From the NCBI GenBank assembly GCA_018812525.1, contig JAHJDE010000114.1, positions 1 to 33,243 on the forward strand: a stretch of DNA of 33,243 nucleotides, written 5' to 3'. Source of the stretch: Gammaproteobacteria bacterium. GTDB lineage: Bacteria > Pseudomonadota > Gammaproteobacteria > Chromatiales > Chromatiaceae. The notes under the pieces were generated by a model, which was given only the letters and a program-made list of their open reading frames with translations, did not search any database and had not been told where the DNA came from. Below, piece by piece: positions 15,189-24,043 of this stretch. Within the stretch, counting starts at the first letter, position 1. Each line of letters starts with the position of its first letter. The position numbers and the translations under genes are program-made.

Positions 15189-16516
15189 ATCCCGCCCAGA
15201 CCACCAAGCGGTCCGGCCTGGTCCAGCAGAATACCTTACGCCTGACCCTTGTCTTCATACTGTTCGAACTGCTGATAGTCACTGTCGCCGTGGTTTTTAT
15301 CATGATGCCGATGGCGCAGCGTTCCGCAGAAGACCTTGCAGGGCTGATGGTTCTGTCCGCCCAGACGTGGAATGAGCTACCGTCCAAGACAATACCTGAC
15401 TTCGAAGAGGAACTGGCGCGCTCCCATCTTCTGTCGCTTCGATCGCCTCCCTGCGCCACCTGTGAACCTCGCAACATCCACGGCCTCTACATCTACTTCC
15501 TTGAAGAAGCCCTCGCAGCTCGTCTAGGCACTCCAGTGACGCTGAAAATCACTGTCGAAAAGGGCGGGCCCTGGCTCTGGACAACGGTCCCCGTCGGCGA
15601 CCAGAAAATCGACGTAGGCTTTCCCTACCAGCGCATCGGGACACGACCCTTCCGGGCGCTATTGGTTTCGCTCCTGATCGGTTTCGCGCTGGCGGGGGGA
15701 GTCGCTATCTGGCTGGCGCGCAGCATCGCCAAGTCGCTGGCCCGCCTGGATCGCGCTGCTGCCAGCCTGGGGCTGGGCGACACGCCGGAACTCCTGCCGG
15801 AGGATGGCCCGCGCGAACTCGCCAATCTGGCCCATCGATTCAATGAGATGGCGTTTCAGGTGAGGGATCTGCTGGCAGCAAGGACCACATTGCTGGCGGG
15901 GATCTCCCACGACCTGCGCACTCCCCTGGCGCGCATGCGACTCGCCCTGGAGATGCTCTCCAGCAAGCCGACCCCGGCGCTGGTCAGGCGCATGGAGGCC
16001 GACATCGAGGAGATGAGCAGGCTCATCGGCGATCTCCTGAATCTGGCACGCGGCCTGGAGCGGGAACCTCTCCGCGAAATCGAGTTGAGGTCGTTTCTCG
16101 GTCAACTGAAGGGCGATCTCGGCGCGGCACAGGCCGGGATATCCATAGAGGCGCCCGATCTGTACTTTCTGGCGCCTCCCCTGGCCCTGCATCGCATACT
16201 GGTCAATCTCCTGGAGAATGCGCTGCGTTATGGCAATGGGCGGGCTGTGACCCTGGTCGCCATGACTGCGCGTGACTGGCTGCGCATCGGGGTGCTTGAC
16301 CGTGGCCCCGGAATACCCGATGACCAGATGGAGGCCGTTTTCCAACCCTTCCACCGTATCGAGACCTCGCGCAATGCGGCCACCGGCGGTTCCGGTCTCG
16401 GCCTGGCGATCGTGCGGCAACTGGCCAAGGCCAACGGCTGGCGCGTCACTCTGCACCCGAGACAGGGCGGTGGGTTGGAGGCTTGGTTGGCCCTGCCGCT
16501 CCGGCGCCGCGAATGA
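15185..16516 (+). CDS. EnvZ-like sensor histidine kinase
   Basis: 443 residues starting at a GTG that overlaps the regulator stop. One transmembrane helix at about 20-42, a periplasmic domain of about 110 residues, a second helix at about 157-177, HAMP linker, then the dimerisation box GISHDLRTPLARMR with phospho-His242 and an ATPase domain with N (VNLLENALRYG), G1 (DRGPGIPD) and G2 (GGSGLGLAIV) boxes. The DLRTPL box is EnvZ-type. The periplasmic domain carries a CATC pair (Cys90 and Cys93), unusual for EnvZ and possibly a redox or metal switch. Signal unknown. The paired regulator is immediately upstream. Confidence 0.94.
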   Translation: MNPAQTTKRSGLVQQNTLRLTLVFILFELLIVTVAVVFIMMPMAQRSAEDLAGLMVLSAQTWNELPSKTIPDFEEELARSHLLSLRSPPCATCEPRNIHGLYIYFLEEALAARLGTPVTLKITVEKGGPWLWTTVPVGDQKIDVGFPYQRIGTRPFRALLVSLLIGFALAGGVAIWLARSIAKSLARLDRAAASLGLGDTPELLPEDGPRELANLAHRFNEMAFQVRDLLAARTTLLAGISHDLRTPLARMRLALEMLSSKPTPALVRRMEADIEEMSRLIGDLLNLARGLEREPLREIELRSFLGQLKGDLGAAQAGISIEAPDLYFLAPPLALHRILVNLLENALRYGNGRAVTLVAMTARDWLRIGVLDRGPGIPDDQMEAVFQPFHRIETSRNAATGGSGLGLAIVRQLAKANGWRVTLHPRQGGGLEAWLALPLRRRE

Positions 16517-16595
16517 TGCGGTTCGCGCCTTAGGCGTCGAGCAAGAATAACTTGAACATCTTGCATCTCGTCTTCAGGCCACATTTAGCCGAATC

Positions 16596-17375
16596 TCAAT
16601 CGAAACCCCGCCCCTCGCCGGCCTCTTCGTAGGTCACCCCGTCGCGGATGTGATAAATCCGCTTGAAGGTCGGGATAATCTTCTCGTCATGGGTAACGAC
16701 GATGATGGCGGTATCGAACTGCCGGGCCATCTGGTTGAGGATGCGGATTACCGCCAGCGCCCGCTCACTGTCCAGCGGTGCGGTCGGTTCGTCGGCCAGG
16801 ATGACCGGCGGACGGTTGACCAGGCCGCGGGCGATGGCCACCCGCTGCTGTTCGCCGCCCGATAGCTGCGATGGCATGGCCTTGGCGCGATGGGCCACGT
16901 CGAGCGCCTGCAACAGCGCCATGGCCTGCTCGCGCGCCGCGCTGTTGGGCTTGCCCGCAAGCATCGGCAACAGGGCGACGTTGTCGGTCACATCCAGGAA
17001 GGGGATCAGATAGGGCGCCTGGAACACGAAGCCAATCTTGTCGCGCCGCAAGGCGCGCAGATCCGAGATCCGCCAGCCACCGTCGTAGATTAGATCCCGG
17101 CCCAGGGTCATGCGCCCGGCCGAGGGCTCGATGATTGCCCCCAGGCACTTGAGCAGCGTACTCTTGCCCGAGCCGGAGGGCCCGACCAGACCCACGACCT
17201 CACCCGGACCCACAGACATATGGACATCCTTGAGGGCATCGACGGCCGTGTCGCCCTGGCCGTAGCGTTTCTTTAACCCTTCGATATGGATCCCGCCCAG
17301 GGACTGTTTCAAATCCATCCTTTGATCCGTAATCGGCGCCTTCCTGCTCCACTTATCGCCGCTATCGCTATCCAC
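16596..17375 (-). CDS. ABC transporter ATPase (MacB/LolD-like)
   Basis: 259 residues. Walker A GPSGSGKST (65-73), Q-loop FVFQAPYLIPFLDV, signature LSGGEQQRVAIARGLV, Walker B VILADEP and the H-loop VTHDE are all intact, so it should hydrolyse ATP. It matches the LolD/MacB group that powers FtsX-like permeases. GTG 17375 overlaps the permease stop by eight bases and has GGAGG six bases upstream, so it is accepted; ATG 17318 is an alternative that removes 19 residues. It is the last gene of the tetR-hlyD-permease-ATPase set and is convergent with the EnvZ-like kinase gene. Confidence 0.94.
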   Translation of the reverse strand: MDSDSGDKWSRKAPITDQRMDLKQSLGGIHIEGLKKRYGQGDTAVDALKDVHMSVGPGEVVGLVGPSGSGKSTLLKCLGAIIEPSAGRMTLGRDLIYDGGWRISDLRALRRDKIGFVFQAPYLIPFLDVTDNVALLPMLAGKPNSAAREQAMALLQALDVAHRAKAMPSQLSGGEQQRVAIARGLVNRPPVILADEPTAPLDSERALAVIRILNQMARQFDTAIIVVTHDEKIIPTFKRIYHIRDGVTYEEAGEGRGFD

Positions 17376-18582
17376 CGATCGCCTCCGCTGGATCCACCTT
17401 TAGGGCCGCGCGAATCGCCACCAGGCTGGCGAGTACACAGATCACCACCACGATGACAAAGCCACGCATCGCGTCGCCGGGTTCCAACAACACATACTTG
17501 GGAAAGACCGGCGCCCAGAAGGTGGCGGCGATCTTGCCCACCACGAAGCCGATAAGGCCCAGCCCCACAGCCTGTTGCAGAATCATCGCCGCGATGGTGC
17601 GATTCCGGGTGCCGATGAGCTTGAGCACCGCAATTTCGCGGATCTTGCCCATTGTCAGGGTGTAGATAATGAAGGCCACGATGGCGGCGCTGACCACGGC
17701 CAGGATCACCAGAAACATGGCGATCTGCCTGGCCGAGGTGGCAATGAGTTTGGCGACCAGGATCTCCCGCATCCCTGCCTTGGTATGGACGCCCAGGCGC
17801 TTCCAGCGCCGGATGGGTTCGGCCACGGCGTCAGGATTGGCGCCGGGTTCGATCTGCACCAGCACGGCATTGACATAGGGATTGGTGCTCTGCGAGGTAA
17901 TCACCGCATCCAGCAGGCCGGGCACACCCGGCCGGTTCAGTTCCCGGTTCTGGGCAGTGCGGGCACGCTGGCGCAGGATGGCATCGTTGTCCTTTAGAAA
18001 TTGCGCCTCCTGGGCGTCCTTGAGCGGGATGAAGATCATGGGATCGCCGCCCGAGGAGACCATGCGCCGGGTCAGGCCGACCACATCATATTCATTGCGC
18101 CGTATGCGGATGCGGTCGCCCAGCGCAAAGCCTGTGGCGATGTCGGCCACGGCCTCGTAGTGGCTGCGGGTGATGTGTCGGCCGGCCACCAGAAAGCCCG
18201 GCTGTCCGGGATGCCCCGGCGCGTCGGGTGTGATGCCGACCACCATCGCCCGGACATCGGCTGAAGCAGTTTCGTTCGATCGGCGCACCTGCATGGTCAG
18301 GTAGGTAATGTTGGCGGCGTCCGCCACGCCCGCCATGCCGAGTATGCCGCGATAGCTGTCGTCATACAGGCTCGATGACTCGGCATAGGGCCCTAGCGTA
18401 CCCTGCTGCACCACCCAGAGATCGGCACCGCTGTTGTCCAGCAGCACTTCAGCGTCATCGACCATGCCGCGGTAGATACCGGCCATGCTGAGCGTCACGC
18501 CGATCAGCAGCCCCAGCCCCATGCCCGTAAAAATGAATTTGCCCCAGGCATGGAGGATGTCACGCCCCGCCAGACTGATCAC
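17368..18582 (-). CDS. FtsX/MacB-like ABC transporter permease
   Basis: 404 residues with one transmembrane helix near the N-terminus (about 16-38), a large periplasmic domain of about 240 residues (MacB-PCD-like, containing LWVVQQGTLGPYAESSSLYDD), then three helices at about 285-400 with the FtsX-type segment YTLTMGKIREIAVLKLIGTRNRTIAAMI. This topology is that of MacB/LolE-type mechanotransmission permeases (and of DevC proteins in export systems) rather than classical pore-forming ABC permeases. It works with the downstream ATPase and the upstream HlyD-type adaptor. An unusual 382-bp block of repeats separates it from hlyD, so it may depend on read-through or a secondary promoter. Confidence 0.92.
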   Translation of the reverse strand: MISLAGRDILHAWGKFIFTGMGLGLLIGVTLSMAGIYRGMVDDAEVLLDNSGADLWVVQQGTLGPYAESSSLYDDSYRGILGMAGVADAANITYLTMQVRRSNETASADVRAMVVGITPDAPGHPGQPGFLVAGRHITRSHYEAVADIATGFALGDRIRIRRNEYDVVGLTRRMVSSGGDPMIFIPLKDAQEAQFLKDNDAILRQRARTAQNRELNRPGVPGLLDAVITSQSTNPYVNAVLVQIEPGANPDAVAEPIRRWKRLGVHTKAGMREILVAKLIATSARQIAMFLVILAVVSAAIVAFIIYTLTMGKIREIAVLKLIGTRNRTIAAMILQQAVGLGLIGFVVGKIAATFWAPVFPKYVLLEPGDAMRGFVIVVVICVLASLVAIRAALKVDPAEAIGG

Positions 18583-18964
18583 CCCAAAATCCTCTTTTCA
18601 ACCACAAAAGACGCAAAGAACGCCAAGATAAATAATCTGGTAACTACTTCAGGTCGACCGGCTTTTTGGGCGATCTGAATGGTTACTCCACAGCTTTTGG
18701 GGTTTCCAAAGGGGAGAAGTCTTACTCTCCCCTTTGGTCGCCCCAAAAAATTGCATTTTTTGGGGCGATCTGAATAGTTACATAATCTGCTGCATTTGTT
18801 CGGCGCATCCATGCGCCTCATCCCTTCGGGATTGGTGCGAAAATCCGCTCCCGGCAGTTTTTTGTCAGTGATCCTGCCCTCCTTATCCTGGGCTAGATCT
18901 GGACAAGCCAATGAATTTCTCTGCATTCCTTGGCACTCTATGCAGTTGATCGAGGAAATTAGTA
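18583..18964. repeat. Repeat block inside the export operon
   Basis: No credible gene in this 382-bp gap. It holds a copy of the purine-rich motif seen at 9347 (18597-18628); a direct repeat GGGCGATCTGAATGGTTAC (from 18668) and GGGCGATCTGAATAGTTAC (from 18763); and, between these, two perfect 12-bp hairpins: CCAAAGGGGAGA (18706-18717) with 18726-18737, and CGCCCCAAAAAA (18739-18750) with 18756-18767. The second has a T-run in its stem and may slow polymerase. The one long reading frame here (minus strand) runs through all these repeats and is not convincing. Confidence 0.75.
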
Positions 18965-20161
18965 TCACGGCGACTTGCCCAGAATGCGATCGACGACCTT
19001 GATGCGGCTTCGGGCGCTCAGCCCCTTGTAGCTGTAGACCACGGCCTGCTCTCCGCCACTGAGTCCTTCCAGGATCTGCACCCGGCCATCGAGATCGGTC
19101 ATGCCTGTCTTGACGGGGGCGAAGCGTAAACTGCCCTCTTCGACGACCCAGACGCCGACCCTCCCCTCGAATCGCTGCACGCTGGCATTGGGTACCACCA
19201 GAGTCGCTTCCTGTTTGGCCAGGGCTAGGGTGACCTCGGCCAGTTCGCCGATGGGAGGCGGTGTCGATGGTGTCCGTTCGAACTCCACCTTGGCCAGGAT
19301 CTCTTCGGTCACCGCATCGGCGAGGGGCTCCACCCGCGCAACCCGGCCGGCCAGCTGCGCTCCCCCCTGGGACCGGAGCAGTATTCGCGCCGGTAACCCG
19401 GCTTGCAGCCCCAGGGCCCGCTGTTGGTCGAAGCGGACATTGAGCCAGATGCTGCCGGGCTCCACCACCTCGACCACGGCCTGCCCCGCTAGCACCGTGG
19501 TACCGGGATCGGCATCGCGCCGGGTCACGAGCCCTCTGACCGGCGAGACCAGCCGCAGGTTGGCGCGTTGCCGGATCAATCCCTCTCGCTCCGCGCGAAG
19601 GCGGGCCAGCTCTTGGCGGGAGGCTTCAAGGTTGGCACGGGCGGCCGCCAGGGATGCCTTTGCTGCCTGATATTCTTGATGCTTGGTATCGACAGACTCC
19701 TTGCTTACGGTGTTGGCAGGCAACAACTGCGAGTAGCGATTTGCCTGCCCCCCCGCAAAGTCGGATCGGGCGGCTGCCTCCCGTATCTGCGCATCGGCCG
19801 CCATGACAGTGGCCTCAGCACGCTTGATTGCCGCGTCCTGGCCGCCGACCCTGTCGTCGAGATCGATCGGGTCCATCTCCCCCAGCAACTGATCTGCCTC
19901 GACCCGGTCCCCCGGCTGGACCTCCACGCGCCTGATGCGGCCCGCGAAGGTCGGCCCGATCCTGTGAGTAAAACGCGCCTCCACAATGCCGATGCCAAAG
20001 AGGGCCGGGCTAATCCGTAGGCGTTCAACTGTGGTCAGTGTCACTGGCACAGGGGCCAACGGTCCCGAGCGCAGGGCGGCGAAGGCAAAAAGGGCCAATA
20101 AAGGAATCAGGACAGCAGCCAGGGCAAGGGTCCGTCCCCGGGTCGAGAAAAATTCCTTCAT
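18965..20161 (-). CDS. HlyD-family periplasmic adaptor (membrane-fusion protein)
   Basis: 398 residues. A single N-terminal membrane anchor (about 11-32) is followed by a split lipoyl/barrel-sandwich domain (FAGRIRRVEVQPGDRVEADQLLGEMD, and later LRLVSPVRGLVTRRDADPGTTVLAGQAVVEV), a coiled-coil hairpin between them (about 110-205, rich in Ala, Glu and Arg) and a beta-barrel domain. It should bridge the FtsX-like permease to an outer-membrane channel such as a TolC homologue, which is not in the window. ATG 20161 overlaps the TetR stop (ATGA), so the two are translationally coupled. The repeat block between this gene and the permease is the only break in the operon. Confidence 0.93.
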   Translation of the reverse strand: MKEFFSTRGRTLALAAVLIPLLALFAFAALRSGPLAPVPVTLTTVERLRISPALFGIGIVEARFTHRIGPTFAGRIRRVEVQPGDRVEADQLLGEMDPIDLDDRVGGQDAAIKRAEATVMAADAQIREAAARSDFAGGQANRYSQLLPANTVSKESVDTKHQEYQAAKASLAAARANLEASRQELARLRAEREGLIRQRANLRLVSPVRGLVTRRDADPGTTVLAGQAVVEVVEPGSIWLNVRFDQQRALGLQAGLPARILLRSQGGAQLAGRVARVEPLADAVTEEILAKVEFERTPSTPPPIGELAEVTLALAKQEATLVVPNASVQRFEGRVGVWVVEEGSLRFAPVKTGMTDLDGRVQILEGLSGGEQAVVYSYKGLSARSRIKVVDRILGKSP

Positions 20162-20766
20162 GGCCCACCCCCCACTCCGCGCCGGTAGATGGCGAAAACA
20201 CCCGGTGCCTCCGCACGAATGCGCTGGATATCGCCCGACAGCATGGACTGCATGACCAGCCCCTGGATGGTCCCGATGAATAGTGTGGATGCGGCATGGG
20301 TATCGAGCTGGGAGGCAATCTCCCCCGTCGCCTTGCCCTGCTCGATGAGCCTGACGATGCGTCCGGCGTAGCGGTGGATCAAGGTTAGGGCCATACGTTT
20401 GGTCGGCGTGGACTCAGCCCGTTGCAACTCGCCGAACAGCATGCGCGGCACGCCGGGGTGCTCGGCCACGAATTCCACATGGCCCATAAACATGGCCTGC
20501 AAGGCGTCCAGGGGCGAATTGATCCCTTGCGCTGCCTGATCAAGCCGCGCCAGGAGCCGCTCCGACACCCACTCCATCACCGCCTGCCAGATGGCATCCT
20601 TGGTCGGAAAATGTCGAAATAGCGCCCCCTGCGTCAGGTTCATGTGCCTGGCGATGGCGGCGGTCGTGATTTCGCTCGGGTTGTGCGAACCCGCCAGATC
20701 AATCACCGCCTCGACAGTGACCGCCCGACGCTCGTCGGCAGGTAGGTGTTTTGTGTGGGTATCCAG
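20158..20766 (-). CDS. TetR-family repressor, probable CTG start
   Basis: Local repressor, probably of the export operon that follows. The helix-turn-helix is ITTAAIARHMNLTQGALFRHFPTKDAIW; the C-terminal part is an all-helical ligand domain. From the first ordinary start (GTG 20706) helix 1 of the DNA-binding domain would be largely lost. The frame stays open upstream and reads LDTHTKHLPADERRAVTVEAVIDLAGSH, which looks like a genuine TetR N-terminus. No ATG, GTG or TTG exists there before an in-frame stop, but CTG 20766 has GAGGTG four bases upstream. A CTG start (202 residues) is the simplest reading; an unusual N-terminal truncation is the alternative. Overlaps hlyD by four bases. Confidence 0.85.
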   Translation of the reverse strand: MDTHTKHLPADERRAVTVEAVIDLAGSHNPSEITTAAIARHMNLTQGALFRHFPTKDAIWQAVMEWVSERLLARLDQAAQGINSPLDALQAMFMGHVEFVAEHPGVPRMLFGELQRAESTPTKRMALTLIHRYAGRIVRLIEQGKATGEIASQLDTHAASTLFIGTIQGLVMQSMLSGDIQRIRAEAPGVFAIYRRGVGGGP

Positions 20767-20799
20767 GTTGCACCTCGGCGAACGGCGGACGGCGAAGAG

Positions 20800-20813
20800 A
20801 GTAATCGATTACT
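20800..20813. promoter_or_regulatory. Putative TetR operator palindrome
   Basis: AGTAATCGATTACT is a perfect 14-bp palindrome 34 bp upstream of the proposed CTG start, in the AT-rich promoter region. Size and symmetry suit a TetR dimer. The adjacent TTACC/GGTAA repeats (20816-20836) may extend it. Confidence 0.6.
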
Positions 20814-20860
20814 ACCTTACCAGGTAACAAGGTAACTTCTCAATAGCCCCGTGTAACTTG

Positions 20861-21010
20861 TAGGATGTGGTGAGCGGTAGCCTTGATTAGACGATGCCGG
20901 TGGGTATGTGGAAATGGATCGTTCCCACGCTCCGGCGTGGGAATGCAGGATGGGACGCTCTGCGTCCCGTTTCGCGACACGGGCGGCATTCCCACGCGGA
21001 GCGTGGGAAC
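20861..21010. repeat. BIME-like cluster of REP palindromes
   Basis: A partial copy of the TAGGATGTGGTGAGCG element (from 20861; fuller copy at 32960) is followed by three hairpins: TTCCCACGC/GCGTGGGAA (20922-20943), GGGACGC/GCGTCCC (20952-20968) and GCATTCCCACGC/GCGTGGGAAC (20986-21010). The first and third are inverted relatives of each other. This arrangement is common in gammaproteobacterial intergenic regions. Confidence 0.8.
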
Positions 21011-21036
21011 AATCAAAAAGCCGTTGTTTCAGTTGC

Positions 21037-21261
21037 GTAGCCTGGATGCAGCGAAGCGGAATCCGGAACGCTCCGTGCCACGCGCTTCCCGGATTCATGC
21101 GGTATATCCCTATACCGCACCCTTCGGGCGCAAGGCGTGCAAATCGGCTTTCCTGCCGATTTGTCCACTGCGTTCCATCGTAACCGTTCAGCCCCCTCCC
21201 CCTCTGGGGGAGGGTTGGGGAGGGGGTTGGGGGGTGAACGGTAACGTTCCATCCGGGCTAC
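21037..21261. repeat. Composite palindromic repeat with a G-rich hairpin
   Basis: The ends are inverted: GTAGCCTGGAT (21037-21047) and ATCCGGGCTAC (21251-21261), one mismatch. Inside, CGTAACCGTTCA (21179-21190) and TGAACGGTAACG (21235-21246), one mismatch, enclose a run of G-tracts on the plus strand (21206-21234) and complementary C-tracts. The G-tracts satisfy a quadruplex pattern. No gene is present in 20814-21336. Confidence 0.65.
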
Positions 21262-21280
21262 TCGCTGTTACGGTAATAAA

Positions 21281-21313
21281 AAAACCGGAGCCTGCATAAC
21301 AAGCCCCGGTTTT
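21281..21313 (-). terminator. Terminator of the autotransporter-like gene
   Basis: AAAACCGG (21281-21288) pairs with CCGGTTTT (21306-21313), with further pairing inside. On the minus strand the stem is followed by TTTTTTTATT, 24 bp after the stop at 21337; the plus strand also has a short T-run. Confidence 0.85.
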
Positions 21314-21336
21314 CTTTGGTCAATGTTTCGATTTCA

Positions 21337-23078
21337 TCACATCAATGGCTTGGATACCGGCTCCGTGTGGAAGTAATGGTCCAGGCGTAGCAGGCCGGTG
21401 TACTGGTCGTAGTTGTCCCTGCCGATGCTCTCACAGGCGCCCTCGATGCGCAGGCTGGTGGCCTTGCCGATGCCGAAGCTCAACCCAGCGCCGACGGTGG
21501 CGCCCATATCGCCGGGGCTGTAGAAGGTGCCGTCCGATCTCTGGATCTGGCCCACGTCGTCGAAGTCCCATTGACCTTCGACCTTGGCAAAGAACTCGGC
21601 GTTTCTGAAACTCTGTTCGAGGATGGGGATGAACACCTGGGTGCCGAAGGTCAACTGACCCAGGGTGATGTCCTGCGCGCCGTGGGCAGTGCCGGCGCTA
21701 TCGCTGTAGGACCCCTGGTTCTCCTCGGTGTAGGAGACGCCGACCTTGGGCAGCCAGCGAATGGGACGTTCGCTGCCGTCCTTCTGCTTGAGGATCACGG
21801 CGGTGAGGTTGGCGGCGGCCAACCAGCGATCGGCGCCGAAGCTGGCGGTGGTGCCGGTATCCGTCTCCCGCAGGTCGTAATCGACATCCGAATAGCTGAC
21901 TTGGCCGTCGAGGACCAGGTGAACCGGCAGGCCGGTATCGCCGGGGGTAAGCAGATAGCCGAAGTAGGCCCCGGCCACGGACGCCTTGGTGTCGAGGGCG
22001 GTGTTCTGGGAGGTGAAGTCGGCGTCGCCTTCGTCGTGGCCACCGAAGGCACCCACCAGCAGATTGCTACTGAAGAGATGGTCGATACCGACGCGACCGA
22101 ACCAGAGGTCGCCGTCGAAGTTGTTGCCGGTCTCCGAGCTATCCACCTTGGTGTAGCCGCCGGAGGCCCAGAGGTCATAGGGCGCGTTGTTGTAACGCAG
22201 GGCGCTGGGGGCCGAGGCGGTCTGGCGGCTGTTGGCGGCGAGGCCGGGTCCGTAGGCCGCGCCGGAAACCGGGCTGCTGGCGCCAAGGCTGTTGAGATCG
22301 GCCATTTCCGCCTCCCGCTTCTGCTCCTCCTTCTCCCGGTCGCTGCCGCCGAAGAGTTTACCCATCAGGCCGTCCTTGGAGTGCCAGGTGGTCCGGGAGG
22401 GGCGGTCGATGCCGGCGGAGAAGGTGCTGGCCAGGGCCTGGGCGGCGGCCAGATCCTGCAAGCTCTCCTTGGTCGCGAAGCCGGTCAGGGCGGTCTGGGT
22501 ATTACGGGAGATCATGCGGTTGACCAGCCGATTCTGGATCTGGGTCTGGGTCATGAACTGCTGGGCGTTGCTGGTGGTGTTCATGAAGCCCGCCGCGGCG
22601 CTGGTACCGGCGGAACCGAAACGTTGTTGACGTTGGGTTCCGGCATCGGCGCCCGTGGCGCCACCGCCACCAGACGGAGCCGCGACCCCGACCAAGCTGA
22701 TGTGTGGGCAGCGAAGGCCCATCCGCTTCCCGCGACCCATTCACCGTAAAAGTAATAACTGGCGTCTGTAGTAGGCTTCTTAAAAAAGTAACAGCCGGGG
22801 GTAATGGCATCGCCAGCACTCCATGTGCCAGAACAGGTGGTGTCTGTTTGGTCCGTACATTTTGTCATGCCAAAAACTGGTCCATACGTATAGACGTTGG
22901 TTGCGATCACACCAACTGCCGCGATTGTCCCCACGGGGTGTTGGCATGTTAGGTAAGAATTGCCTGCTTGGAGCGAGGCACTAACAGTGTCGCAATCTGC
23001 TGCGTAAAGCCCACCGGAAAACATCAACAATAGCAGGCCATAGAGGGTTTTGTTGAGCGCATGCCGACGGTAAATCAT
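21337..23078 (-). pseudogene. Autotransporter beta-domain outer-membrane protein, frameshifted
   Basis: Two overlapping reading frames make one protein. The first begins at ATG 23078 (GGGGAG six bases upstream) with a signal peptide (ALNKTLYGLLLLMFSGGLYAADC) and about 100 residues with five Cys. The second, open only from 22740, gives a Gly/Ala linker (GGGGATGADAGTQ), a helical region and a C-terminal autotransporter-type beta-barrel (SGGYTKVDSS..., LFSSNLLVGAFGGHDEGD...) ending in alternating strands (YTGLLRLDHYFH). Without the first frame the barrel has no signal peptide, so a -1 shift between about 22610 and 22740 joins them. This may be a true mutation, a sequencing error or, less likely, recoding; no classic slippery heptamer is evident. 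The N-terminal part is AT-richer than the barrel. Ends in a strong terminator. Confidence 0.75.
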
Positions 23079-23140
23079 TTCTTTCTCCCCAGGGATTACA
23101 AGTAATAATATAGATTTGGGCTGGCGTTCTTGATGTCCCA

Positions 23141-23824
23141 TCAAGTCCTCAACCGTTGAAGCAGGTACTCTACCGCCCCGCCCCATACAAGCCAGGAGAC
23201 CCCAAATAGCACTAGAACAACGGTCTCAAGTTTATATATAAAATCAGGCTGATCGTCTACGGGGTTAAAGCTTGCTATCACGATAAATAGTACTAAGATG
23301 GCTATAAGAACCCCGGCAAGGTAGCCAATAAACAGGGCATATACGGGTACATTTTCATCACTATGTAAGAATGCACTCGCCAGCGCGGAAAAGATAAAGA
23401 ACAACGCGGCGGAACCCCCGTGTACCATTGTCACCCAGTTGTTTTCGGCATGACCAAACATACAGGGGGACTCGGGGAGGCATGAGCACTTAAAGCCCTC
23501 GATGCCATCAGGGCAATGCGTGGGAAACAGCACGACAAGAAGGGCAAGGAAACCGGCCGCCTTCACCACCCAAATGTTATACCACTTGTCATCCCTTCTC
23601 TCGCCAGTATAGGCAAGCATGAACATGCCTATGGCCGATACAATACCTATAAACAAAACTCCTGCCGGACTGTAATAGGATGCGCTGATGGAAGGCGGGT
23701 TGCCCGCCCCAAATATCTTGTCAACCCAATAAATGGCGAAAGGAAGCGATATGCCCATGAGACCGACAGCTATCCGGATCAACTTATAGGTTTCAACGGG
23801 CAGTTTTACGCTGTCTGTGTTCAT
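23141..23824 (-). CDS. Six-helix membrane protein of unknown function (DUF998-like)
   Basis: 227 residues with six predicted membrane helices and an extramembrane loop between helices 3 and 4 rich in Cys (HCPDGIEGFKCSCLPESPC). The pattern SASYYSPAGVLFIGIVSAIGMFMLAYTGERRDDK, then a VLFPT motif and a conserved-looking His after the loop (TMVHGGSAALFF) recalls small DUF998-type membrane proteins; function unknown. ATG 23824 is chosen because GAGGTGGGA directly precedes it; the longer reading from 23980 would translate through a poly-G run. Base composition is visibly AT-richer than the flanking genes, suggesting transfer. It lies 62 bp upstream of the autotransporter gene on the same strand. Confidence 0.75.
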   Translation of the reverse strand: MNTDSVKLPVETYKLIRIAVGLMGISLPFAIYWVDKIFGAGNPPSISASYYSPAGVLFIGIVSAIGMFMLAYTGERRDDKWYNIWVVKAAGFLALLVVLFPTHCPDGIEGFKCSCLPESPCMFGHAENNWVTMVHGGSAALFFIFSALASAFLHSDENVPVYALFIGYLAGVLIAILVLFIVIASFNPVDDQPDFIYKLETVVLVLFGVSWLVWGGAVEYLLQRLRT

Positions 23825-23865
23825 TCCCACCTCTACTTTAAAGAGCAAAGATGCGTCGAATTCTA

Positions 23866-23877
23866 CCCCCCCCCCCC
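23866..23877. repeat. C12 homopolymer upstream of the membrane protein gene
   Basis: Twelve consecutive C (G on the coding strand) lie about 41 bp ahead of the start codon, within the leader or promoter. Runs of this length are prone to slippage and could vary expression. The flank resembles that of the poly-G run at 33219-33236. Confidence 0.8.
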
Positions 23878-24043
23878 GCAAGTCAATTGATTCCTTGACG
23901 GGCATCACAAATCGGCAATACCGAAGAAAGATGCGGTTATTTAAAAGGGTAGGAAATGTTTCTCGACAAACAATGAACACATGAAGGCTTTGATCTCAAG
24001 GAGTGTGAGTCAGGATGGAGGGTGGGGTCGCTCCGATGGGTGC

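Follow-up and report, generated by a model that had tools for sequence, protein, structure and literature searches.

The window analysed here, the whole stretch of 33,243 nucleotides, carries on its minus strand an operon in the order tetR-mfp-permease-ATPase (Table 1). The operon combines an RND/HlyD-type adaptor with a MacB/FtsX permease, as expected of a tripartite ABC exporter of the MacAB/DevBCA type. In MacB the ATPase and the permease are fused. Here they are separate genes, so MacB proper was rejected, as was DevC proper, for which the score of 36.3 bits lies far from the model cut-off of 290. In the sister genome the adaptor gene adjoins the permease gene, but in the window 382 bp (18583-18964) lie between them. 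Pieces of this stretch are widespread, with 59 own-genome matches among those listed, the query included, and this recurrence suggests that a dispersed repeat has entered the operon. Another repeat-like intergenic element, an inverted repeat built on GTTCCCACGCTCCG, lies upstream of the operon at 20917-21014.

Table 1. Features of the tetR-exporter locus, in window coordinates.
Feature	Position	Strand	Description	Basis
Putative ABC ATPase gene	16596..17375	-		ORF; sister orthologue; gene order as in annotated plasmid copy
ABC permease gene	17368..18582	-		MacB_PCD and FtsX, both over Pfam cut-offs
Periplasmic adaptor (membrane fusion) gene	18965..20161	-	ATG overlaps tetR stop	TIGR01730, 136.8 bits (cut-off 94.9)
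TetR-family repressor gene	20158..20766	-	202 codons, CTG to codon preceding TGA	Pfam TetR_N; full-length homologue alignment; AlphaFold model
GTG, Val21	20704..20706	-	First in-frame canonical start codon; not the start	Homologue codons; model
Predicted leader hairpin	20721..20792	-	Pairs Shine-Dalgarno match with codons 7-8	MFE; shuffles
CTG, strongly supported start codon	20764..20766	-	ATG in sister genome	ATG/GTG/TTG in homologues at this position
Shine-Dalgarno match GAGGTG	20771..20776	-	6-nt match, 4 nt from CTG; GGA only in sister	
Predicted 26-bp palindromic operator TAAGGTAGTAATCGATTACTCTCTTC	20794..20819	-	Core 20800-20813	22/26 match to family consensus
Predicted -10 box TAAGGT	20814..20819	-	TAAGAT in most homologues	Position
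Predicted -35 box TTGAGA	20838..20843	-	18 bp from -10	Weak

The product of the first gene, translated from CTG 20766, is a protein of 202 residues. It scores 32.4 bits for the Pfam DNA-binding domain TetR_N (PF00440; cut-off 24), which bears out the first-pass annotation in its claim of a convincing TetR N-terminus upstream of GTG 20706. TetR_C_13, TetR_C_24, and TetR_C_4 also exceed their Pfam cut-offs. The AlphaFold model consists of nine helices with a mean pLDDT of 91, and its top structural matches are TetR-family proteins. The protein thus has the all-helical architecture and the C-terminal ligand-binding domain expected of TetR/AcrR repressors. By sequence, the nearest solved structure is the TetR-family nucleoid occlusion factor SlmA (5haw, E 1.1e-15), and SlmA is nearest by fold as well (4gct, TM 0.80-0.85), with other TetR-family regulators also among the closest structures. 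However, the identity to SlmA is only about 20%, and the window protein, unlike SlmA, adjoins an exporter and has one predicted palindromic operator. The NCBIfam SlmA model gives 67.4 bits and does not reach its cut-off of 120, so the protein was not assigned to SlmA.

Homologues of tetR are also found on plasmids (224 of 72,556 plasmid records), and the gene is nearly unchanged across many proteobacterial genera. One E. coli plasmid (L113) carries a tetR-adaptor-permease-ATPase-cytochrome c-outer membrane operon between IS110-like elements. The operon on Enterobacteriaceae plasmids such as p1585m1_C has the gene order of the window and encodes a TetR that is 76% identical, and genome loci of this 76% type have the same operator as the window. 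In contrast, the 76% type starts with GTG, and the plasmid operon includes the extra cytochrome c and outer-membrane genes, neither of which lies directly downstream in the window.

Direct reading of the minus strand (20158-20820) showed that the tetR frame holds no ATG, GTG, or TTG from the stop located 15 codons above CTG 20766 down to GTG 20706. The CTG, the upstream GAGGTG, and the lack of an earlier canonical start thus agree in coordinates and codons with the first-pass annotation, which had proposed that the gene needs a CTG start. Relatives were collected by a species-genome scan, which gave 514, of which 80 loci were kept, and by a family search that added more. A total of 112 loci were loaded, and matches with an E-value of 1e-30 or lower were obtained for 94, including that of the window itself. 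At the codon aligned to CTG 20766, the 93 other loci have GTG (48), ATG (31), or TTG (10), making 89, and the remaining 4 have an ATG one to three codons upstream. A canonical start therefore lies at the CTG position or within 3 codons of it in 93/93 loci, which strongly supports the need for a start at this place, and none of the 93 was found to begin at the position of GTG 20706. CTG itself occurs at the aligned codon in 0 of the 93. This count is redundant, because L004 and L080 represent the same record and many of the loci are almost identical copies of a single mobile (plasmid-type) version. Among 70 distinct leaders, a set that excludes loci with a non-NTG aligned codon, there are 30 GTG, 29 ATG, 10 TTG, and a single CTG, that of the window. 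Pattern searches covering 369, 31, 20, and 4 genomes reached eight further genomes, all with ATG (8/8), and thus a second CTG-start member of the family was found neither among the 93 loci nor in these searches. In an E. coli plasmid record, the homologue is annotated from the same codon as the window CTG. GTG and TTG starts are favoured in this repressor family (40 of the 69 other distinct leaders); the family is already partial to weak starts, and the CTG continues this trend. The alignment also showed that the ADERR segment named in the first-pass annotation is conserved.

A 14-bp palindrome had been reported just upstream of the gene and taken as a sign of an autoregulated operon. The palindrome AGTAATCGATTACT is indeed present at 20800-20813, but the full palindrome is larger, and the 14 bp form the core of a conserved 26-bp site (20794-20819). 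Exact AGTAATNNATTACT sites number one in the 3.5-Mb genome, namely the operator core. Compared with the consensus of the 26-bp site, TAAGATAGTAATcaATTACTATCTTA, the window agrees at 22 positions and each of the 79 other distinct leaders at 19-26 (median 24). The window site has 9 of 12 symmetric pairs and is less symmetric than most, since 62 of the 79 others have 10-12. The site spans the predicted -10 box, at its left end, and the predicted transcription start. In 22 of 80 leaders, a hexamer resembling a -35 box lies 15-18 bp upstream and agrees with TTGACA at 5 or more of 6 positions; these include the window, with TTGAGA at 18 bp. Just 3 of 6 positions are reached in 41 of the 80. A generic promoter scan upstream of tetR returned no site, so the -10 and -35 assignments derive from the homologue alignment alone. 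Given that a conserved putative operator with this palindrome as its core lies over the predicted -10 box, it is very likely that the repressor autoregulates its own operon through this predicted site. The position and conservation of the site thus favour the autoregulated operon proposed earlier.

The leader between the operator and the start codon is unusual in the window. The spacing of GAGGTG, 4 nt from CTG, is workable, though the motif is predicted to be paired. The distance from the site to the start is 27 nt in the window, 14 nt in the sister, and 9-22 nt in the others, making the window leader 13 nt longer than that of the sister. Together with the different Shine-Dalgarno sequences, this length difference indicates a change in the leader on the window branch, the sister branch, or both. 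The predicted minimum free energy of the window leader is -28.8 kcal/mol (z -2.25), and 3 of 200 shuffles were equally stable. It is the most stable of the 70 leaders, although it lies only 1.7 SD off expectation after correction for G+C, and its initiation region is the sixth least accessible of the 70. Twelve homologue leaders folded singly gave z values from -1.64 to 1.99. No known RNA element was detected by Rfam in the leader (16000-24000 searched). The longer leader, the 6-nt Shine-Dalgarno match, and the strongest fold of the set suggest that translation from the CTG is likely to be low, and the combination of a CTG with predicted pairing of the whole Shine-Dalgarno sequence could yield almost no protein.

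Such a low output raises the question of whether the window has really lost its start, with the CTG and the closed leader giving next to no repressor, the operon being constitutive, and the gene beginning to decay. Reporter output from CTG was about one-tenth of that from TTG (Hecht et al., cited in PMC11983097), and both the predicted pairing of the Shine-Dalgarno sequence and the 382-bp stretch that now parts the adaptor and permease genes would fit such a loss. However, the frame is intact, and so is the operator core. We compared the gene with that of the sister codon by codon. In codons 2-20 there are 6.5 synonymous differences over 15.2 sites (0.43 per site) and 2.5 nonsynonymous differences over 41.8 sites (0.06 per site); in the rest of tetR the values are 45.5 over 135 and 30.5 over 402 sites, respectively. 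These counts indicate that purifying selection acts on codons 2-20. When amino-acid changes were polarised with 27 outgroups, 11 were assigned to the window branch and 16 to that of the sister, and 3 were ambiguous; the window branch shows no excess, and the protein departs from none of the otherwise invariant TetR columns, although a very recent mutation would look alike. A pseudogene was rejected for want of any sign of decay in the codon comparison, the branch changes, or the invariant columns, with the reservation that decay from a very recent mutation would not yet be visible. We consider a genuine loss of the start to be fairly improbable.

An error of sequencing or assembly is also improbable. 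According to this explanation, the true codon is ATG (or GTG or TTG) and the gene is ordinary; the CTG comes from a single assembly of 215 contigs, the sister has ATG, and no other homologue has CTG. However, the leader too is unlike that of the sister, being longer by 13 nt and having another Shine-Dalgarno sequence, which argues that this stretch has really changed. To obtain a base rate, 0.51 and 1.13 Mb of the two genomes were compared, yielding 163 reciprocal frame pairs (antisense shadows included) whose differences lie mostly at third positions. A canonical start is shared near the beginning of the alignment in 96 of these pairs, and near ones occur in 4. Among the other 63, TetR is the only pair in which a canonical start faces CTG within the first two aligned columns, indicating that such faults are not common. 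One further CTG/ATG pair was seen at aligned column 6, in a short frame (L170) of doubtful coding status. Only about 0.024% of bacterial genes are annotated with a CTG start (PMC11983097, PMC11497404), and so a real CTG would be rare but not absurd.

Two other starts within the frame were considered. GTG 20706 is the first in-frame canonical codon and would give a shortened protein of 182 residues, as in the table of ATG/GTG/TTG open reading frames. However, in 37 of 74 distinct homologues codon 21 is GTC, GTA, or GTT, and it therefore cannot be the start of the family. Moreover, helix 1 of the DNA-binding domain comprises residues 10-27 in the AlphaFold model, so that a start at residue 21 would fall within it and remove its first half, and codons 2-20 are conserved. 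The homologue codons and the position of helix 1 in the model thus rule against GTG 20706, and translation from it is very improbable. Initiation at the ATT within the operator, codon 2 of the open frame and the sole ATT/ATC/ATA codon between the stop and CTG 20766, has a negligible chance, as no Shine-Dalgarno-like stretch precedes it, it lies at about the predicted transcription start, and the homologues, whose starts lend it no support, begin at the CTG position.

The start of tetR translation at CTG 20766 is therefore strongly supported by comparison with its homologues. As far as alignment can tell, this comparison shows the position of the start, the conservation of the N-terminus, the lack of a usable alternative start, a conserved putative operator, and the ATG of the sister. 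As expected of a bacterial CTG-start gene, tetR has CTG at its start position and no usable canonical start. We favour, with a probability of roughly three in four, the reading that tetR is intact, starts at CTG 20766, and encodes a TetR-family repressor that autoregulates the four-gene operon of an ABC-type tripartite exporter to which it belongs. The CTG would be read as fMet. A repressor dimer would bind the 26-bp palindrome, covering the predicted -10 box and transcription start, and block tetR and the pump genes, and a ligand, judging from the family and the anatomy of the operon, would release it from the operator. On the window lineage, the change of the start codon to CTG may have lowered initiation, while the 6-nt Shine-Dalgarno match close to it may preserve some, and the CTG and the folded leader would together hold repressor output low. 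Published measurements on start codons (PMC11983097) make plausible the earlier suggestion that repressor levels are kept low by the rare start. The suboptimal starts GUG and UUG tend to accompany stronger Shine-Dalgarno sequences (PMC5622118). GAGGTG in the window versus GGA in the sister fits this pattern as a single case, and that the Shine-Dalgarno sequence compensates for the CTG is a guess from one lineage.

A close parallel is the rep gene of the FIB replicon of F-like plasmids. Its CTG start was proven by mutation and by N-terminal analysis, and annotations commonly place the start, wrongly, at a GTG 14 codons further on (PMC11983097). Like the window tetR, it combines CTG with a good Shine-Dalgarno sequence, has a downstream GTG that canonical-start annotation takes (14 codons there versus 20 in the window), and encodes a regulatory protein of low expression (PMC11983097); the last probably holds for tetR as well. 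In contrast to tetR, rep encodes a replication initiator rather than a repressor, and CTG in the tetR family was seen in a single genome, that of the window. No CTG-start TetR repressor appeared among the papers listed in our literature search. CTG starts are already known in bacteria, and the window tetR would be a new member of this small class, as a repressor. LacI is not a TetR-family protein. In E. coli lacI, a weak GTG start leads to less repressor and higher basal expression of the operon (PMC11445065), an effect measured in lacI and presumed for the window tetR, where the codon is CTG, not GTG. Low repressor production from CTG would take the logic of the lacI GTG further.

A bolder and unlikely interpretation is that the region around the start now acts as a rebuilt translation switch, set very low and possibly adjustable, in which the CTG was chosen by selection and not merely tolerated. 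The extra G+C-rich stretch of the longer leader would then fold onto the first codons and cover the Shine-Dalgarno sequence, and the CTG, the folded leader, and an operator whose outer arms are weakened would jointly set the repressor at few copies. If so, the pump would be primed or noisy.

For the reading that we favour, an intact repressor starting at CTG 20766, the significance lies in initiation rather than in a new type of system. Well-supported natural CTG starts seem to be few, and gene callers limited to ATG, GTG, and TTG shorten the genes that have them, which makes the case of interest to annotators and to students of initiation. Here, a deep family fixes the position of the start, and the sister with ATG and the window with CTG form a clean pair for gauging the effect of CTG on an autoregulated repressor.
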